Assembly (NCBI RefSeq): GCF_000378185.1
Contig: NZ_KB899379.1
Span: forward strand, 106,720 to 170,719
DNA: 64,000 nucleotides
Source of the DNA: Salinimonas chungwhensis DSM 16280
GTDB lineage: Bacteria > Pseudomonadota > Gammaproteobacteria > Enterobacterales > Alteromonadaceae
Direction of reading: 5' to 3'
Part shown: piece by piece, positions 48,165-56,298 of the stretch
Position numbering within the stretch: the stretch's first letter is position 1
How the letters are laid out: every line of letters starts with the position of its first letter
Made by a program: the position numbers and the translations under genes
The notes under the pieces: model-generated
The model's database searches: none
Seen by the model: only the letters and a program-made list of their open reading frames with translations
Told to the model about the DNA's origin: nothing

Positions 48165-49022
48165 GTGTTTGATTACGATACCGCATTTTCCAGAAACATC
48201 GGCTGGGTAACCCACGATGAACAGGCCCAGTTACGGCAAAAACGGGTTGCTATTGCCGGCTGCGGCGGCGTGGGGAGTCTGCACGCGCTTACCCTGGCCC
48301 GCCTTGGCATAGGAAAAGTGAATTTGTCAGACTTTGACGAATACGATGTGCATAATTTTAACCGGCAAGCTGGCGCGTTTTTATCTACGGTAGGTGAAAA
48401 CAAAATGCAGGTGATGCACAACATGCTAAAAGACATCAACCCTGAGATGGATATCCGCGATTTTGGCGATGGTGTTAATGAGCACAATGTGGATGATTTT
48501 CTGCAGGATGTCGACCTTTATATAGATAGCCTGGATTTTTTTGCCCTTGCCGCCCGCAAGCTGGTTTTTCAGAAGTGCTATGAAAAGAATATTCCGGTGG
48601 TTACTGCCGCCCCGCTGGGTATGGGCTGCGCGCTGCTGTGTTTTATGCCCGGCAAGATGACCTTTGAGGAATATTTCCGGTTTGAGGATAAAGCCGACGA
48701 AGAAAGCCAGCTCATTCAGTTTCTTATCGGTCTTTCGCCGGCGATGTTACAGCGTAATTACCTCATGGATGATTCGGCCGTCAGCTTTAAAGAGCGCCGC
48801 GGACCATCAACCGGCATGGCAGTGAACCTGTGTGCCGGTATGGCTGAAACCTACGCGCTGAAGATCCTGCTTAAGCGCGGTGAAGTGCTCACCGCGCCTT
48901 ACGGGCTGCACTTTGACGCCTACCGCAATAAGCTTACCCGTACCTGGTGCCCCAAAGGTAACCGCGGGCCTTTGCAACGCCTGAAATTTAAAATTGCAGC
49001 AAAAATTGTGGCGGATAATTAA
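48165..49022 (+). CDS. ThiF/E1-like adenylyltransferase family protein
   Basis: Nucleotide-binding GCGGVGS (residues 32-38) and the E1-type DFDEYDVHNFNRQAG stretch are clear. The two CxxC zinc motifs of ThiF/MoeB are missing, so it belongs to an atypical E1-like group. No ubiquitin-like or thiamine-pathway partner is adjacent, so the substrate is unknown. Length 285, GTG start with AGAGAGATT upstream. It ends before the first PEP-CTERM promoter. Confidence 0.82.
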   Translation: MFDYDTAFSRNIGWVTHDEQAQLRQKRVAIAGCGGVGSLHALTLARLGIGKVNLSDFDEYDVHNFNRQAGAFLSTVGENKMQVMHNMLKDINPEMDIRDFGDGVNEHNVDDFLQDVDLYIDSLDFFALAARKLVFQKCYEKNIPVVTAAPLGMGCALLCFMPGKMTFEEYFRFEDKADEESQLIQFLIGLSPAMLQRNYLMDDSAVSFKERRGPSTGMAVNLCAGMAETYALKILLKRGEVLTAPYGLHFDAYRNKLTRTWCPKGNRGPLQRLKFKIAAKIVADN

Positions 49023-49109
49023 GCATTTATTCGTCAGGAATTTTTACATAGTACTATTTCATTACCCCAATAAAAACAACAAACACCGTAAAATCAATAT
49101 CTTATTGTT

Positions 49110-49127
49110 TTGGCATGATAGGTGCTA
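49110..49127 (+). promoter_or_regulatory. RpoN (sigma-54) promoter, PEP-CTERM gene 1
   Basis: TTGGCATGATAGGTGCT: GG at 49112-49113 and GC at 49124-49125, exactly 10 bases apart. The predicted start is near 49137, giving a leader of about 58 nt. Confidence 0.7.
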
Positions 49128-49194
49128 CATCATTTGTACCTTTTGCTTTCAAAGATGAAAGCGTTTTAAAGTTTACAGATAACTGGAAGTAATC

Positions 49195-49962
49195 ATGCAA
49201 ATTAAACACTTGGTAAAGTCCATCGCACTAACTGCGGGTATCGCGGCATCTTTTTCTAGTCATGCAGACTTTGTTGAATTTTCAATCGATGAAAATTACG
49301 CATCTGGTGGCAACGGCAAAATTATCGTTGCTGATAAAATTAATGGCGGGTATGTAGAACGCCTTACCTTTGATGCAGCTGGTAACTTTACTGCGAATGC
49401 CTTTGCTACCTTCGGCTTGCTTTACAATGGAACTACATCATTGAAAGGGAGCGACATCGGTCTAAACAACACCTACTCACTTTACGCAACGTTTGAAGCG
49501 CAGGGTTACACCGGCCAGGATGATAACACGCAGTTTTTGATTGGTGAGACCGGCGGTTTTCAGCTCTTCTTAGACAGAAACAACAACACTCGCTTATCAG
49601 CGAATGACGATATTGATTCAGTTATAAACACCGGTGACGATATTTTGTTAGGCGGCGCTGATGTTTTAGGCCCCAATGTGGCAACAAGTAGCACCATTGG
49701 TAATAGAACAGTAACAGCATTCAATTTTGATTTTTGGAATTTCTCATTAACAGCTGAGGGTGACCAGTACTTTGTATCGCCTGAACCATTCTCAATGGCG
49801 GTTAATGTAACGGGTGATTTCGATGAGTTTGGTCAGGGTAACGAACAAATTATCCGTGGCGACTTAGACGCCGTATTTTATGAAGTGCCAGAACCTTCAA
49901 CACTGGCAATATTGGGTCTTGGGTTGTTGGGCTTGGGCGCGTCCAGCCGTCGTAAAGCTTAA
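49195..49962 (+). CDS. PEP-CTERM sorting domain protein 1 (PepA-like)
   Basis: Exported protein of 255 residues. The signal peptide is residues 1-24 (SSHA before DFVEF) and the C-terminal sorting signal is VPEPSTLAILGLGLLGLG followed by RRKA. Exosortase A is expected to cleave before the hydrophobic stretch. The body is acidic, has no cysteine and predicts as beta, with conserved ADKINGGYVERLTFD. This resembles the flocculation protein PepA of Zoogloea, but that match is from memory. It is the most diverged of the four paralogues. Confidence 0.9.
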   Translation: MQIKHLVKSIALTAGIAASFSSHADFVEFSIDENYASGGNGKIIVADKINGGYVERLTFDAAGNFTANAFATFGLLYNGTTSLKGSDIGLNNTYSLYATFEAQGYTGQDDNTQFLIGETGGFQLFLDRNNNTRLSANDDIDSVINTGDDILLGGADVLGPNVATSSTIGNRTVTAFNFDFWNFSLTAEGDQYFVSPEPFSMAVNVTGDFDEFGQGNEQIIRGDLDAVFYEVPEPSTLAILGLGLLGLGASSRRKA

Positions 49963-49984
49963 CTGTTAATCACATGACATTATA

Positions 49985-50010
49985 AAGGTGGCCATTTGGC
50001 CGCCTTTTTT
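49985..50010 (+). terminator. Terminator, PEP-CTERM gene 1
   Basis: AAGGTGGCC-ATTT-GGCCGCCTT (one G-T pair), then a T-run. Confidence 0.85.
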
Positions 50011-50376
50011 ACTACCAAAAGACACTGAGTGCGTAAGATATATTTGGGGTAATTAACACTGCAAATTAAACAAATAAGCGCTGGTCGAACCACTACTTTA
50101 AACAGGTTCAAACAATTTTGTCGGCACGAGTTGCTGACAAACAAACTTCAGCTGGAACCATAAAATAATTGAGGTGTTTTGGCGGTTTTCTTTGAGTGAG
50201 ATGCCTGACACTGTAATCAAATTTATATTTGCTCGAGCAGATACTCTTATTAACTTATCTTGCTTCCCCTACAATAAAAGTTTGCAATGATGTGTGTGTC
50301 AGGAAACTTTACGACCAAGTAACTCAACCCTTCTAATCAAAATAAAATAGCTATCAATAACAATAACTTGTAAAAT

Positions 50377-50393
50377 TGGCACTGATGATGCAT
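50377..50393 (+). promoter_or_regulatory. RpoN (sigma-54) promoter, PEP-CTERM gene 2
   Basis: TTGGCACTGATGATGCA: a near-consensus -24/-12 element, GG at 50378-50379 and GC at 50390-50391 with 10 bases between. The predicted start is near 50403. Confidence 0.8.
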
Positions 50394-50405
50394 ACATCAA
50401 TTCAA

Positions 50406-50443
50406 GTGACCTACTCAGTCACATCCGCGGGCTACTCAGCCGC
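50406..50443 (+). promoter_or_regulatory. Tandem ACUC-loop stem-loops in the leader of PEP-CTERM gene 2
   Basis: Two 17-nt elements, GTGACCTACTCAGTCAC (50406-50422) and GCGGGCTACTCAGCCGC (50427-50443). Each folds as a 4-bp stem, one bulged base, CU/AG pairs and an ACUC loop. They lie between the predicted start and the ribosome site (GGAG 50457-50460). Confidence 0.55.
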
Positions 50444-50469
50444 TCAAATTGGAATATGGAGATATAAAT

Positions 50470-51225
50470 ATGAAAATGAATAAATTGGTAAAATCTTTAG
50501 CATTAACAGCTGGTATTGCTGCGTCTTTCTCAAGCTATGCAGACTTTGTAGAGTTCACTGTTGATGAAAGTTATGCTGCGGGCTCAGGCTCTATGGTAGT
50601 TGCTGATAAAATTAACGGTGGCTATGTAGAACGTATAACCTTTGACGGGGCCGGTAACTTCACAGCATCTGCGTTTGCCACGTTCGGTCAATTCTTCAAC
50701 GGTAGTAACTCTTTGAATACTGGTCTTAACAACACCTATTCATTGTATGCAACATTCGAAGCGCAAGGTACTGCTGATTCACAAGGAAATGTTGAATTTT
50801 TCGTTGGTGATACTGGCGGCTTCCAGATCTTCTTAGATAGAAACAACGATACTGGTCTGTCTGATGAAAATGATGTCGATTCTGTCTCTAACACAGGCGA
50901 CGATGTACTGTTGGGTATGTCTGACATGATTGGTGAAAATTTGGGTACCAGCACCACAATCAATGGCAAAACAGTTACTGCGTTTGACTTTGACTTCCTG
51001 GATTTTTCTTTGACAAGTGAAGGTGACCAGTATTTCGTTTCACCTAGACCATTCTCCATGATGGTTAATGTGAACGGTGATTTTGATTCGTTCGCGCAAA
51101 CTGGTGAGCAGATTACTCGTGGTGACGTAAGTGCACAGTTCTACGACGTACCAGAGCCTTCAACGCTAGCTGTTTTAGGTATTGGCCTACTAGGTCTTGG
51201 TGCCTCTAGCCGCCGTAAAGCGTAA
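50470..51225 (+). CDS. PEP-CTERM sorting domain protein 2 (PepA-like)
   Basis: 251 residues: signal peptide 1-24 (SSYA before DFVEF), a beta-rich cysteine-free body, and the PEP-CTERM signal at about 227-251 (VPEPSTLAVLGIGLLGLG, then SSRRKA). An Asp/Asn-rich segment LDRNNDTGLSDENDVDS at about 122-138 looks like a calcium-binding loop. The start is at the ATG after ATGGAG; the frame extends seven codons upstream only by chance. It is very similar to genes 3 and 4, so recent tandem duplication is likely. Confidence 0.92.
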   Translation: MKMNKLVKSLALTAGIAASFSSYADFVEFTVDESYAAGSGSMVVADKINGGYVERITFDGAGNFTASAFATFGQFFNGSNSLNTGLNNTYSLYATFEAQGTADSQGNVEFFVGDTGGFQIFLDRNNDTGLSDENDVDSVSNTGDDVLLGMSDMIGENLGTSTTINGKTVTAFDFDFLDFSLTSEGDQYFVSPRPFSMMVNVNGDFDSFAQTGEQITRGDVSAQFYDVPEPSTLAVLGIGLLGLGASSRRKA

Positions 51226-51247
51226 TTATTAGGTATATTCATTATTG

Positions 51248-51272
51248 AGGCGACCATCAGGTCGCCTTTTTT
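51248..51272 (+). terminator. Terminator, PEP-CTERM gene 2
   Basis: Perfect AGGCGACC-ATCA-GGTCGCCT stem and a T6 run. Confidence 0.88.
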
Positions 51273-51627
51273 ATTGCTAATTAGGCTACAAACTCTCATC
51301 GAATGGGATTATCATCAATGATTGCTTATATTCGAAGCTATGATGGTATTGTTGATATGCCCCCCCCTTCTCCTGAAGATGTCCTTTCACCTTTTTTGGT
51401 CTGCTCTAACCCGCCTTCGGCTGTATCACACGTCATGCAGCATCGCCACCAGGTTTTACAAAATTATTGAGTCGGTCTAAGACTCATAAGATAAGTGCCA
51501 TAAACCTGAGCCTCCAACAAAACTAATGCAAAAGTTAGTAAATTAGCAATTGTCAGGATTTTTTACGATTTTATTTGACACTTTTCATCAGCAACATATA
51601 AACATTTGAAATCAACAGCTTAAAAAG

Positions 51628-51644
51628 TTGGCATTACAAATGCT
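51628..51644 (+). promoter_or_regulatory. RpoN (sigma-54) promoter, PEP-CTERM gene 3
   Basis: TTGGCATTACAAATGCT: GG at 51630-51631, GC at 51642-51643, 10 bases apart. It is preceded by CTTAAAAAG, as in gene 4. The predicted start is near 51655. Confidence 0.75.
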
Positions 51645-51655
51645 TATTCCCTAAT

Positions 51656-51693
51656 GTGGCCTACTCAGTCACATCTGCGGTCCACTCAGCCGC
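51656..51693 (+). promoter_or_regulatory. Tandem ACUC-loop stem-loops in the leader of PEP-CTERM gene 3
   Basis: GTGGCCTACTCAGTCAC (51656-51672) and GCGGTCCACTCAGCCGC (51677-51693). Compared with gene 2, A-U in stem 1 becomes G-U, so pairing is kept. The bulged base of stem 2 changes from G to U. One inner pair of stem 2 is lost. Confidence 0.55.
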
Positions 51694-51718
51694 TCAAATT
51701 GGAATATGGAGATAAAAT

Positions 51719-52474
51719 ATGAAAATAAATAAACTAGTAAAGTCATTAGCTCTCACAGCTGGTATCGCTGCGTCTTTTTCCAGTCACGCAGATTTTGTAG
51801 ACTTCACTGTAGACGAAAATTATGCTGCAGGTTCTGGTTCTACAGTAGTTGCTGATAAAATTAATGGTGGTTATGTAGAGCGCATTACTTTTGATGGTGC
51901 CGGTAATTTCACAGCGTCTGCGTTTGCTACATTCGGCCAATTTTTCAACGGCAGCAATTCTTTGAACTCTGGCTTAAACAGTACGTACTCACTGTATGCT
52001 ACTTTCGAAGCGCAAGGTACCGCTGGCTCACAAGGTAATGTTGAATTTTTTGTTGGTGATACGGGTGGCTTCCAAATCTTTCTTGACAGAAACAATGATA
52101 CTGGCCTGGCCGTAGAAGATGATATTGATTCGATTTCTAACACGGGTGATGACGTGTTGCTGGGGATGTCTGAGATGATTGGCGAGAACCTGGCAACAAG
52201 CTCGACGGTCGAGGGCAAAACGGTGACAGCATTTGATTTCGACTTTCTGGATTTTTCACTTACTGCCGATGGCGACCAATATTTTGTGTCCCCCCAACCA
52301 TTCTCAATGATGGTTAATGTGAATGGAGACTTTGATACCTTTTCACAATCTGGAGAGCAGATCATTCGTGGTGACGTAAGTGCGCAGTTCTACGACGTAC
52401 CTGAGCCTTCAACGCTGGCTGTTTTAGGTCTTGGTTTGTTAGGTCTTGGTGCTTCTAGTCGCCGTAAAGCGTAA
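51719..52474 (+). CDS. PEP-CTERM sorting domain protein 3 (PepA-like)
   Basis: 251 residues with the same layout: signal peptide to about residue 24 (SSHA before DFVDF), acidic beta-rich body, the LDRNNDTGLAVEDDIDS calcium-loop-like segment, and C-terminal VPEPSTLAVLGLGLLGLG plus SSRRKA. The leader is nearly identical to that of gene 2. Likely anchored in or released through the outer membrane after exosortase processing. Confidence 0.92.
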   Translation: MKINKLVKSLALTAGIAASFSSHADFVDFTVDENYAAGSGSTVVADKINGGYVERITFDGAGNFTASAFATFGQFFNGSNSLNSGLNSTYSLYATFEAQGTAGSQGNVEFFVGDTGGFQIFLDRNNDTGLAVEDDIDSISNTGDDVLLGMSEMIGENLATSSTVEGKTVTAFDFDFLDFSLTADGDQYFVSPQPFSMMVNVNGDFDTFSQSGEQIIRGDVSAQFYDVPEPSTLAVLGLGLLGLGASSRRKA

Positions 52475-52496
52475 TTATTAGATATATTAACTGTTT

Positions 52497-52526
52497 AAGG
52501 CGACCGTCTGGTCGCCTTGTTAAATT
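52497..52526 (+). terminator. Terminator, PEP-CTERM gene 3
   Basis: Perfect AAGGCGACC-GTCT-GGTCGCCTT stem. The tail is weaker (TTGTTAAATT). Confidence 0.75.
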
Positions 52527-52689
52527 AAGTGATTTTCTCACTTATACAAGCCTACTCTATTAATTATGGTGGCCCGCCCTCCAAATCTGCTCAATAAAAG
52601 GCCAGTTGATTGTCAGTTTTTTTTACAGTGTCAATTATTCACTTAGCTTCACGCAACTATTCTTGGTCTATTTCAGTGACTTAAAAAGC

Positions 52690-52706
52690 TGGCATCACAG
52701 CTGCAT
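52690..52706 (+). promoter_or_regulatory. RpoN (sigma-54) promoter, PEP-CTERM gene 4
   Basis: CTGGCATCACAGCTGCA: GG at 52691-52692, GC at 52703-52704, 10 bases apart. The predicted start is near 52716. Confidence 0.75.
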
Positions 52707-52716
52707 ACTATCTTAC

Positions 52717-52734
52717 ATGAGTTACTCAGCTCAT
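52717..52734 (+). promoter_or_regulatory. Single ACUC-loop stem-loop in the leader of PEP-CTERM gene 4
   Basis: ATGAGTTACTCAGCTCAT: a continuous seven-pair stem (one U-G) with an ACUC loop. Only one copy, and no bulge. Confidence 0.5.
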
Positions 52735-52756
52735 TTATTGGAATATGGAGATGGTT

Positions 52757-53512
52757 ATGAAAATTAAAAACTTGGTAAAATCTTTAGCGCTAACAACTGG
52801 TTTAGCGGCTTCTTTCTCAAGCTATGCAGATTTCGTTGAATTTACTGTCGATGAGAGCTATGCATCAGGTAACGGTTCAACTGTTGTTGCTGATAAAATC
52901 AATGGCGGGTATGTAGAACGTCTTACTTTCGATGGTGCAGGCAACTTTACTGCTTCAGCATTTGCTACATTTGGTCAGTTCTTTAGTGGTAACAATTCAC
53001 TGAACTCTGGTCTGAATAACGAATACTCTTTGTATGCAACGTTCCAAGCAGAAGGTACTACTGGTACTCAGGGCAATGTTGAATTCTTCGAAGGCAACAC
53101 TGGTGGTTTCCAAATTTTCTTAGACAGAAACAACGATACCGGCCTGGCTGTTGAAGACGACATTGATTCGATCTCTAACACTGGTGATGACGTGCTTTTA
53201 GGTATGTCGGATATGATCGGTGAAAATCTTGGTACAAGCACTACTATAAACGGCAAGACCGTTACTGCTTTTGACTTTGATTTCATGGATTTTTCACTAA
53301 CAGCTGAAGGTGACCAATACTTTGTTTCGCCTATGCCGTTTTCTATGATGGTGACAGTCAACGGTGACTTCGATACATTTAACACAAGTGGTGAGCAAAT
53401 TACCCGTGGTGATGTAAGCGCTCAGTTTGTTGATGTACCAGAGCCTTCAACCCTGGCTGTTTTAGGTCTTGGTTTGTTAGGTCTTGGCGCAACAGGTCGT
53501 CGCAAATCTTAA
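52757..53512 (+). CDS. PEP-CTERM sorting domain protein 4 (PepA-like)
   Basis: 251 residues: signal peptide to about 24 (SSYA before DFVEF), the shared ADKINGGYVERLTFDGAG and LDRNNDTGLAVEDDIDS segments, and PEP-CTERM tail VPEPSTLAVLGLGLLGLG with ATGRRKS at the end. The start is the ATG after ATATGGAG; four upstream in-frame codons are unlikely to be translated. The leader has one stem-loop in place of two. Confidence 0.92.
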   Translation: MKIKNLVKSLALTTGLAASFSSYADFVEFTVDESYASGNGSTVVADKINGGYVERLTFDGAGNFTASAFATFGQFFSGNNSLNSGLNNEYSLYATFQAEGTTGTQGNVEFFEGNTGGFQIFLDRNNDTGLAVEDDIDSISNTGDDVLLGMSDMIGENLGTSTTINGKTVTAFDFDFMDFSLTAEGDQYFVSPMPFSMMVTVNGDFDTFNTSGEQITRGDVSAQFVDVPEPSTLAVLGLGLLGLGATGRRKS

Positions 53513-53531
53513 TCATTAATTGATAGTTCAA

Positions 53532-53556
53532 AAGGCGGCCATTGGCCGCCTTTTTT
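53532..53556 (+). terminator. Terminator, PEP-CTERM gene 4
   Basis: Perfect AAGGCGGCC-ATT-GGCCGCCTT stem, then T6. Confidence 0.9.
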
Positions 53557-53730
53557 GTATAACCCCCACTGGTTTATCGAAAATCCTGAGAAAACGGCTT
53601 TTCCAGCGACTTTGTACATAGTTTATTTTTTGTTGCGTTAAACCGCCTTGAGACATTCTTCGTAACCTTTCTTTTTGTAAGTATTAGGCTTACAGTAGAC
53701 CATCACTTTATAATAGGTTAGTAGTAGGTT

Positions 53731-56298
53731 ATGGATAAAACATTTTTAAAGACTGGCGCTATCGGTGTAATCTCGCTTGGGCTGTTGATGGGTTGTAGTC
53801 AACCTTCTGATGAAGAACGACTCGCAACCGCCACTAAGGCTTTGGAATCGGAGAATTACCAGGAAGCGGTAGTAACTTTACGTAGTGTTTTACAATCCTC
53901 TCCTTCTAATACCCAGGCTCGCTCCCTCCTGGCGGAATCCTACTTCGCGTCAGGTGATATGGAAAGCGCCGTCACCACCTTTGAAAAAGCGCTTCAGATG
54001 GGCAGCAGGCTGTCAGACTTCTCGGATAGCTATTTTACTGCTCTCTATTTTAGCGATAAATTAGACCAGGTGGATACTATCCTTCAAGACTATCAAAATG
54101 ACTTATCCGCTGAGCAGTTAGCCAAAGCACAAGCGATTGCAGGCTTGGTAGCAGCACGTAATAATCAACAAAGTGAGGCAGAAGCTCTTTTTGAAAAAGC
54201 CCTTGCAATCAATGATCCGGCCATCAAAATGCTAAGCGAATTGATTGATACATATTTTATCAATCGTGATACCGAAAACACGGTTGTTATCGAGCGAGCT
54301 AACCAGCAATTTAAAGATGACTTTTTAATAACCTCGTTGGTCGGCGAGATCGCCTATCGTTTACAGAATTTTAAGCTTGCTAAAGACGCTTATGAACGCG
54401 CTTTGGAGGAAAAACCTCTATATTTAAGGTTAAACCTTAATTTAGCGCAGACTTATATCAAATTAGGCGAATTTGAAAATGCCACACCTCATGTTGATGC
54501 CATTCTAAAGCGAGTGAAAAATCAACCTCTTGCTAATCAACAAAAAGCATTGATTGCAATTTCTCAGAAAGATTTTGTTAAAGCAAATACGCTGATTGAG
54601 CGTGCAATGGCAAATGGTATGAGTTCGCCTCTTACGTTTTATATCGCCGGGCTGACAAATTTCAGGACAGATAATTACGAAAGAGCAATACAGAACCTGG
54701 GCCGCATAGTGAACGAGGTTCCCGCCGACCATCCAGCCAAACAAATGTATGTCGCTGCAAAATTACAGGTTGGTTCGTCTTCCGAAGCATTTGAGGTACT
54801 TTCAAGCAACCCCCAGATAACAGCTCAAAATGCAAACCTGGCGGTTAATACAAGTTTTAGCTTGTTGGAAAGTGGTAAGAAACAAGAAGCCCGTAAAATA
54901 ATGGATGCTGTGGACGAATCAACGCTGGACAGTGATCGGAAACGACAACAGCTGGGCATGTTAAAAGCGCTTGCCGGCGATGAGTCTGGAACTAAGTTAA
55001 TTGAAGATGCCAGCAAAGCTATATTATCCGTCAACGATAATGCCAACTCGGCCCAGTCGAAAACACTTTTATTGTCTATGAAAGCTTCATCTGGTGATAC
55101 GGAAGGTGCCCGTCGACTTTTGAACGAATGGACAGAACAACAACCGGACAATGTGCAGAACTATCTGTTATCAGCCGAGCTTGAAAAGTATTTAGGCAAC
55201 CCGGATAAGTTGCCTGAGATTTATGCAAAAGTTTTAGAGCTTCAACCTGACAACGCGGTAGCACTCAACTTTAAAGCAGCCAAGGCTTTTAACAGCGGAA
55301 ATTACGCGCAAGCCAACAAGCTGTTCACGCAAGTTATTGAGCAAGCTCCTAATAATCGAAATGCAATTCTAGGTCGTTTTAAGAGCGCAGCCGCTTTGGA
55401 AAAAGATCTCAGTGAGCTTGTTGAAAATCTATCGAGCAACGCCCAGGTGAGCAGCTTTACACGCCTTTACGCAAACTATTTAGCAAGTAATTACCCCGCC
55501 GTAATCAAAATTGGACAGGGCGCAGCGTTTAACAATATTGACCGGACGATGGCAAATTACCTGATAAGCGACGCTTACTTGCAAACCAATCAACCTAAAC
55601 CAGCAATTGATAAATTACAGAGCATGCTGAGAGATAATCAGGGAGGCGACCAGGTACGGCTCGCACTTGCTAAAGCTTATGCAATGAATAAACAAATTAA
55701 TAAAGCACTTAATACATTACAGACGGTACAAAGTGCCAGCCCACAGATAAGCAATGCATCCTCACTGACCAAAGCACGACTGTATTTAGGCAAAAACGCT
55801 GCAAGCAATGCCAAAGCTGCACTTGCCGAGGTGACAGAGGAAGGTCGTGCTAGTTCAGAATACCTGCAGCTTGAAGGACGCACAAATCTAGCTTTGGGCG
55901 AGACAGAGAAAGCCGTAGACCAGTTACGTCGTTCATATGAAGCAAGTCCAATTGCAAGTACCGCTCAGTATTACTATCAGACATTGGAAGCAAATGGACA
56001 ATCAGATGATGGCGTGCAAATGCTTGTTGAGCATGTTGAAAAACACAATGATCCCCAGGTAAAAATGTTGTTAGCCGGCGTAATGGCGAAGACGCAACCC
56101 CAAAAGGCCATAAACTATTACCAGTCGTTGGTTGATGAAAATCCTGATAATTGGGTTGCTATGAACAATCTTGCATGGCTATTGGGTGAACAAAACCAGC
56201 TGGATAGAGCCTATAACGTTATTAGGGAAGCGCTTGATAAGTCTCCACGTAATCAAACGCTGCTGGATACCAAAGCCGATATTGAAGCGAAAATGTAA
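53731..56298 (+). CDS. prsT: PEP-CTERM system TPR-repeat lipoprotein PrsT
   Basis: An 855-residue lipoprotein (lipobox LLMGC, Cys22) made of about 20 tetratricopeptide repeats (for example ESENYQEAVVTLRSVLQSSP, NPDNWVAMNNLAWLLGEQNQLDRA). It matches the PrsT family known only from genomes with exosortase A and its exopolysaccharide cluster. It is thought to work in periplasmic or outer membrane handling of polysaccharide or PEP-CTERM proteins. No sigma-54 element precedes it, unlike the four genes before it. It is followed by the glycosyltransferase genes. Confidence 0.92.
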   Translation: MDKTFLKTGAIGVISLGLLMGCSQPSDEERLATATKALESENYQEAVVTLRSVLQSSPSNTQARSLLAESYFASGDMESAVTTFEKALQMGSRLSDFSDSYFTALYFSDKLDQVDTILQDYQNDLSAEQLAKAQAIAGLVAARNNQQSEAEALFEKALAINDPAIKMLSELIDTYFINRDTENTVVIERANQQFKDDFLITSLVGEIAYRLQNFKLAKDAYERALEEKPLYLRLNLNLAQTYIKLGEFENATPHVDAILKRVKNQPLANQQKALIAISQKDFVKANTLIERAMANGMSSPLTFYIAGLTNFRTDNYERAIQNLGRIVNEVPADHPAKQMYVAAKLQVGSSSEAFEVLSSNPQITAQNANLAVNTSFSLLESGKKQEARKIMDAVDESTLDSDRKRQQLGMLKALAGDESGTKLIEDASKAILSVNDNANSAQSKTLLLSMKASSGDTEGARRLLNEWTEQQPDNVQNYLLSAELEKYLGNPDKLPEIYAKVLELQPDNAVALNFKAAKAFNSGNYAQANKLFTQVIEQAPNNRNAILGRFKSAAALEKDLSELVENLSSNAQVSSFTRLYANYLASNYPAVIKIGQGAAFNNIDRTMANYLISDAYLQTNQPKPAIDKLQSMLRDNQGGDQVRLALAKAYAMNKQINKALNTLQTVQSASPQISNASSLTKARLYLGKNAASNAKAALAEVTEEGRASSEYLQLEGRTNLALGETEKAVDQLRRSYEASPIASTAQYYYQTLEANGQSDDGVQMLVEHVEKHNDPQVKMLLAGVMAKTQPQKAINYYQSLVDENPDNWVAMNNLAWLLGEQNQLDRAYNVIREALDKSPRNQTLLDTKADIEAKM

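Follow-up and report, generated by a model that had tools for sequence, protein, structure and literature searches.

What small stem-loops could do in the leaders of neighbouring paralogous genes is the question raised by a locus of Salinimonas chungwhensis DSM 16280. The window, that is, the whole stretch of 64,000 nucleotides that was analysed, contains four pepA genes in succession and, behind them, prsT, all on the forward strand. Judging from sequence comparison, the pepA mRNAs appear to begin with one or two small hairpins, whose arms vary in concert between related species and which may have a role in protection or control of the message.

Gene Organization and Promoters

The four pepA paralogues lie at 49195..49962 (gene 1), 50470..51225 (gene 2), 51719..52474 (gene 3) and 52757..53512 (gene 4). 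Their products score 200.3, 206.3, 210.6 and 209.3 bits, respectively, against model NF033554 (floc_PepA, cut-off 80), which places all four above the cut-off for the flocculation-associated PEP-CTERM protein PepA. The prsT gene (53731..56298) encodes the TPR lipoprotein of the XrtA/PEP-CTERM system (TIGR02917, 324.2 bits, cut-off 312.2). The regulator PrsR (TIGR02915, 703.2 bits, cut-off 502.6) and RppH, an enzyme of 5'-end-dependent decay (NF001938, 149.1 bits, cut-off 116), are also encoded in the genome. Excerpts of a study on an activated-sludge type bacterium assign PepA a role in floc formation (PMC9850573). The sequence-only reading of this DNA had counted three paralogues; genes 2 to 4 are indeed pepA genes, but a fourth one upstream, gene 1, had been overlooked, and its leader carries a hairpin of its own with a different sequence (49145..49162, from sequence and folding), which begins at the predicted +9.

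Upstream of each of the four genes, a 17-nt motif of the form TGTC or CGTC..TTTAC[A/G] was found by eye, in a comparison with motif 1 of Haft 2006. These putative PrsR enhancers end in TTTACA at genes 1 (49032..49048) and 4 (52611..52627), and in TTTACG at genes 2 (50297..50313) and 3 (51551..51567). Each is followed by a sigma-54 -24/-12 element recognised from the sequence, at 49111..49125, 50377..50391, 51629..51643 and 52690..52704 for genes 1 to 4. With the transcription start taken to lie 12 nt after the GC of the -12 box, +1 is predicted at 49137, 50403, 51655 and 52716. The strict pattern of enhancer plus sigma-54 promoter has two matches in this genome, and the TTTAC-to-TGGC distance is 51-52 or 62-65 in 63 of the 73 leaders in which it is measurable (77 leaders in all).

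This layout corresponds to what is described, in the parts considered, for proteobacterial PEP-CTERM genes, in which motif 1 ending in TTTACA precedes a sigma-54 element (Haft et al. 2006, PMC1569441), and for pepA of Aquincola, whose mapped start lies downstream of an enhancer and sigma-54 element of the same kind (PMC9850573). Each pepA gene of the window has its own PrsR-type sigma-54 promoter; the layout is observed, and we infer its activity from the literature. The promoters had not figured in the sequence-only reading, and the sigma-54 element now places the first hairpin at the predicted 5' end of the mRNA. The earlier placement of the elements just upstream of the ribosome site applies only to the second element of a pair, or to a single one, while the first element lies at the predicted 5' end of the message.

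Hairpins in the Leaders

The five elements described from the sequence are all present at the positions given for them, two each in genes 2 and 3, 4 nt apart, and one in gene 4, and all have an ACTCA core. In gene 2 they span 50406..50422, from the predicted +4, and 50427..50443; in gene 3 they span 51656..51672, from the predicted +2, and 51677..51693. These four are delineated by sequence, folding and covariation. The gene 4 element (52717..52734, sequence and folding) is a hairpin of 7 bp with an ACUC loop that starts from the predicted +2. Behind the hairpins, the ribosome-site stretch TTGGAATATGGAGAT is located at 50449..50463, 51699..51713 and 52738..52752 in genes 2, 3 and 4, as judged from sequence.

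The internal structure of the elements is less uniform than first proposed. A stem of 4 bp, a bulge, CU/AG pairs and an ACUC tetraloop constitute the minimum-energy fold in only one of the four bulged elements (the second of gene 2, where its frequency is 0.22). For the other three, the minimum-energy fold is a stem of 5 bp with a 7-nt loop, and the gene 4 element forms an unbulged stem of 7 bp. All of them nevertheless have an outer stem of no fewer than 4 bp and an apical YYACTCAR. The claim that sequence changes preserve pairing holds, between genes 2 and 3, for one of three differences (A-U to G-U); another falls in the bulge, and the last breaks an inner U-A pair.

By folding, the stems of the window reach -3.3 to -5.8 kcal/mol. 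Folded alone, the five elements give z values of -1.06 to -3.77 against shuffles, and the whole leaders of genes 2 to 4 fold no better than their shuffles (z -0.24, -0.05 and +0.10); the gene 1 leader yields -0.6 kcal/mol over +1..+24. The main support for the elements is positional and comparative.

Folding at the Predicted 5' End across the Genus

PepA genes of the genus were collected above the model cut-off, which gave 48 genes in 12 of the 59 genomes. A leader with a recognisable promoter and start could be read in 47 of them, with lengths of 35 to 67 nt for the leaders, and 38 remained non-redundant at 80% identity. Over +1..+24, the mean fold energy of these 38 is -4.26 kcal/mol, against -2.00 +/- 0.25 kcal/mol in dinucleotide shuffles (z -9.1), and none of 300 shuffles is as low. 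At a 50% identity cap (n=22) z is -5.6, again with 0 of 300 as low, and when leaders with the ACTCA core are removed (32 of the 38 left), z at +1 is -7.5. As related leaders are not independent, all of these z values are inflated.

The signal is confined to the predicted 5' end. In a sliding window it is optimal at -1 to +1 (z -9.5 and -9.3), extends over window starts from about -5 to +3, falls to z -1.9 at +5 and is absent from +9. A second dip occurs at about -30 in the 22-nt profile; because it lies on the promoter itself and is seen in the other set too, it is not read as an RNA signal. In 25 of the 47 leaders a single hairpin attains -3 kcal/mol or better, and 22 of these 25 begin at +1 to +4. 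Over +1..+24, -3 kcal/mol is reached by 32 leaders, with at least one in each of the 12 genomes, whereas the remaining 15, gene 1 included, are weaker. The stem has just 3-4 bp in G100, G299, G330 and G318.

Several comparisons bear on whether such folding belongs to the promoter type or to pepA. Forty other enhancer plus sigma-54 promoters of the genus were hand-picked among the matches listed, 39 of them with an open frame; several of these control genes have a sub-threshold match to the PepA model. The first 24 nt of the controls average -1.57, against -1.22 in shuffles (z -1.6), with 8 of 39 at -3 or better; when the comparison was repeated against 150 shuffles, z was -2.0 at +1 and -2.3 at -1, so that a slight folding tendency of the control group is possible. 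The G+C content is 0.445 in the pepA leaders and 0.357 in the controls, and the shuffles keep composition. No clear effect appeared in 25 non-redundant leaders from other genera and weaker relatives (z -1.4). Outside the family, in a 398-genome sample of the phylum searched at E up to 1e-20, PepA was found only in G624, in three copies; the promoter was recognised in two of the three, and no clear hairpin was seen at +1. The hairpin is therefore mainly a pepA trait of the genus, rather than one of the whole regulon or, in the few cases seen, of pepA elsewhere.

Covariation of the Stem and Conservation of the Loop

For the analysis of covariation, the window elements were combined with those of two further genomes (G303 and G314), giving seven distinct bulged elements, small numbers that were compared with 500 shuffles. 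The outer four pairs hold in all seven, through exchanges of U-A to C-G and G-C to A-U; the outer helix is 100% paired, and two of its four pairs are changed on both sides. Overall, 95.2% of the cells are paired, against 89.1% in shuffles (4 of 500 as high). Covariation scores 0.389, where shuffles average 0.239 +/- 0.054 (3 of 500 as high) and slid versions reach 0 to 0.24. Two of the five measures do not clearly exceed the shuffles, namely the pairs changed on both sides (36 of 500) and the pair types (187 of 500). One inner pair is lost in the second element of gene 3 and in the element common to G303b and G314b. The inner CU/AG pairs and the bulge are not dependable; of the proposed covariation of the stems, the compensatory changes in the outer stem stand, and the inner pairs are insecure. 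RNAalifold returned zero pairs on a plain MAFFT alignment of 28 leaders because arms of unequal length were misaligned. A pairwise stem comparison was set aside, as its paired columns had been picked beforehand and it rests on an automatic hairpin choice that took wrong, longer hairpins for gene 3 and G168_45024.

The loop presents a different picture. ACTCA is invariant in nine of nine elements of G000, G303 and G314, and these three genomes supply all seven of the 47 pepA leaders that have it in a loop. The other leaders have loops such as ACTG, ATTG, ACTT, ATTC, GTTAA and TTG, and the nine other pepA genomes have hairpins at the same place with different loops. The initial emphasis on the ACUC loop was thus too narrow, covering seven leaders of three genomes, while the genus commonly has a hairpin at this position with some other loop.

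A covariance model was built from the nine elements, seven of them with ribosome-site tails, and used to search the 59 genomes with strict filters. It gave 16 matches at E up to 0.0205, all in leaders of genes over the PepA cut-off, and nine of the 16 lay outside the model. The next match (E 0.032, in G300) does not lie beside a gene over the PepA cut-off and is expected by chance over 59 genomes. Much of the score is carried by the ribosome-site tail, so that bare hairpins elsewhere would escape the search; even in genes 2 and 3 the first elements reach only E 0.09, and weaker pepA leaders are intermixed with chance matches.

The genes compared are not recent copies. Between window genes 2 to 4 and those of G303 and G314, 0.37 to 0.66 of the fourfold sites differ, and 137-147 of 237-238 residues are identical. 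G303 and G314 are close to each other (fourfold 0.16 between one gene pair) and represent approximately one lineage. In the aligned leaders, genes 2 and 3 are the same at 59 of 64 positions, but in the adjoining 26 nt upstream at only 13, and 52 of their 110 fourfold sites differ; the leader agreement, set against the fourfold divergence, bears out that the elements are not merely part of recently duplicated DNA. The proposal of a conserved RNA element with covarying stems in pepA leaders is supported to this extent. The shared leader could reflect selection, or gene conversion over a short tract bounded by the two edges of the leader, selection being the simpler account. Both the ACTCA loop and the leader common to genes 2 and 3 are conserved beyond what a plain hairpin would need.

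As to the view that the motif had not been described, the region 49000-54000 has 12 weak matches in Rfam 15 (E up to 10), none in the leaders and none at the gathering score; most of them cover inverted repeats behind the genes. Control of PEP-CTERM genes at the level of transcription is already described in the excerpts of PMC1569441. In mainly open-access literature, searched by title and abstract start, PEP-CTERM was never joined with stem-loop and was joined with hairpin only in asthma work, and, among the papers listed, nothing came up on pepA leaders or on control of PEP-CTERM genes after transcription.

Possible Role of the Hairpins

By analogy, the hairpin could be a pepA-specific 5'-terminal structure that acts like the mRNA stabilisers of ompA and papA, a reading we prefer tentatively and whose probability we put somewhat short of even. 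It is suggested by where the hairpin lies, next to the predicted 5' end, by arms that are exchanged without loss of pairing, and by a loop that is free to vary in most species. The PrsR-type sigma-54 promoter would produce a short leader that opens with a hairpin, a few nucleotides at most from the predicted start. With few unpaired nucleotides at the 5' end, RppH and 5'-end-dependent RNase E would be hindered, decay would be slower, the mRNA of this matrix protein would live longer, and the output of PepA would rise. An A/U-rich stretch with the ribosome site would remain outside the hairpin. In genes 2 and 3 the hairpin is repeated once more before the ribosome site is reached.

According to sections of PMC3997798, structure at the 5' end stabilises mRNA because a single-stranded 5' end is what RppH and RNase E depend on; the Bacillus subtilis enzyme described there requires a minimum of two unpaired nucleotides, with a preference for three or more. 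Such an enzyme may therefore not be stopped by a hairpin at +4, and as the starts in the genus are predicted from the -12 box, an error of 2-3 nt would matter for this argument. The weak stems of the window, the stems of 3-4 bp in four genomes and the 15 of 47 leaders above -3 kcal/mol also speak against a stabiliser. For a function independent of the loop sequence the picture is mixed: loops vary in the genus, yet ACTCA is invariant in nine elements of three genomes.

As a stabiliser leaves the conservation of ACTCA unexplained, a partner that binds the loop is the main rival. ACTCA would then be the site of a protein or small RNA and the stem would present it, with the doubling in genes 2 and 3 raising avidity or allowing feedback on the synthesis of PepA; we regard this as possible, though rather unlikely. 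Stems and linkers change around the invariant loop in all nine aligned elements, the genes compared are old by their fourfold divergence from G303 and G314, and almost all of the leader is preserved between genes 2 and 3. Other loops occupy the same place in nine other pepA genomes, however, and G303 and G314 amount to about one lineage. Up to E 0.0205 the model search matched pepA leaders only, which also counts against such a partner, although its dependence on the tail means that bare hairpins elsewhere would be missed. Somewhat less probable again is a lineage-specific RNA code, in which a YYACUCAR loop, doubled in two paralogues, would be recognised by its own protein or small RNA, one that adjusts several pepA mRNAs together and whose counterparts in relatives would have co-evolved with other loops.

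An effect on translation, by which the hairpin would keep the start region clear or switch with a pairing that hides the ribosome site, is improbable. TTGGAATATGGAGAT is identical in genes 2 to 4, TGGAATATGG recurs in 19 of 47 leaders, and the ribosome site of gene 4 is predicted to pair with early codons; yet the folded region of gene 4 does not exceed shuffles in stability (z -0.38), and no recurring alternative pairing was found by eye. How accessible the site is predicted to be varies widely, from 0.01 to 0.90 with a mean of 0.39 over 44 of 47 leaders, and a ribosome-site switch was rejected on this inconsistency. Still more doubtful is an action of the inverted repeat as DNA or within the initial transcribed region, where it would serve a dimeric repressor as operator or influence promoter escape. 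The repeat does occupy +2 to +20, a position suited to a repressor, and in genes 2 and 3 its copies follow each other at 21 bp, equal to two helical turns, but arms that vary and covary around a kept centre are the opposite of an operator. A CRP site has GTGA and TCAC 6 nt apart; here they are 9 nt apart, and a CRP operator was discarded. Least probable, and already disfavoured, is a functionless leftover of duplicated DNA with chance palindromes. It would accord with the near-identical leaders of genes 2 and 3 and with whole leaders of genes 2 to 4 that fold no better than shuffles; against it stand the signal's dependence on position, seen in 22 to 38 leaders depending on the identity cap, and conservation of the leader where the neighbouring promoter stretch and the synonymous sites are not conserved.

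If the hairpin sets mRNA lifetime, as in the stabiliser reading, PEP-CTERM genes would have a second level of control beyond transcription. The 47 related leaders would then be a natural series in which the rule that a 5' hairpin makes a long-lived mRNA could be tested outside enteric bacteria.

Comparison with Known Systems

CsrA/RsmA-bound leaders belong to matrix-related genes and have GGA in a hairpin loop. The pepA leaders share the link to matrix and have two GGA in the ribosome-site stretch; a CsrA/RsmA target was nevertheless rejected, since the element loops of the window lack GGA, which lies outside the hairpins. With the PrsR/sigma-54 promoters of PEP-CTERM genes, as covered by the parts of PMC1569441 and PMC9850573 considered, they share motif 1 (TGTC..TTTACA), a spacer of about 63 nt, the -24 GG/-12 GC element, the arrangement as single genes and the position of pepA beside prsT. 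They differ in the leader hairpin, which is absent from these published accounts in the parts considered; the text of PMC9850573 contains neither "hairpin" nor "stem-loop", and its "stem-and-loop" denotes a terminator.

There is also a likeness to the 5'-terminal stabilisers of the ompA and papA kind in Escherichia coli (PMC3997798 for papA and the kind in general). The leaders studied here differ from them in their length of 35 to 67 nt, their weak stems and their sigma-54 promoter, and in that they belong to one gene family with many paralogues, with the loop sequence kept in one lineage. The two hairpins of genes 2 and 3 are a point of resemblance. Also common to both are a hairpin at or near the predicted 5' end, an mRNA for a surface protein, and a single-stranded stretch with the ribosome site behind the hairpin.

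Leader elements, ribosome site and gene ends

Where 4.5 copies of the octamer YYACTCAG would be expected, the window contains 16, a count that is reached in none of 100 shuffles, and the five ACTCA hairpins in the leaders of genes 2 to 4 account for only five of these sites. At the ribosome site, sequence comparison revealed that genes 2 (50449–50463), 3 (51699–51713) and 4 (52738–52752) carry letter for letter the same stretch, TTGGAATATGGAGAT, which exceeds a plain Shine-Dalgarno in length and whose core, TGGAATATGG, is present in 19 of the 47 readable pepA leaders of the genus. Perfect inverted repeats lie 3' of gene 2 (51248–51267), gene 3 (52497–52518) and gene 4 (53530–53554), and are apparently terminators; a putative terminator behind each gene agrees with single-gene units.

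PepA genes and promoter spacing

No PepA gene scores above the NF033554 cut-off in 47 of the 59 genus genomes, and the many-copy genomes G305, G323 and G068 (loci L091, L092, L089, L090 and L041) contain 8, 10 and 9, respectively. The distance between TTTAC, part of the putative PrsR enhancer, and the -24 box could be measured in 73 of 77 leaders, which include paralogues and are, hence, not independent. The values cluster at 51–52, 62–65, 73–76 and 84–88, with two leaders at 94. These classes are separated by steps of approximately 11 bp, as if the enhancer had to lie on one face of the helix.

Hairpins in other leaders

A hairpin at or near the predicted +1 is also found in a few other PrsR-type genes (loci L178 and L192; L181 and L194; L195), exemplified by AGCCA...TGGCT arms with differing middles in two genomes. 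Two loci of another genus, L049 and L050, have a hairpin farther downstream in the leader (one with arms AAGTCTG/CAGACTT, one with AAGTT/AACTT), which suggests other leader structures in relatives.
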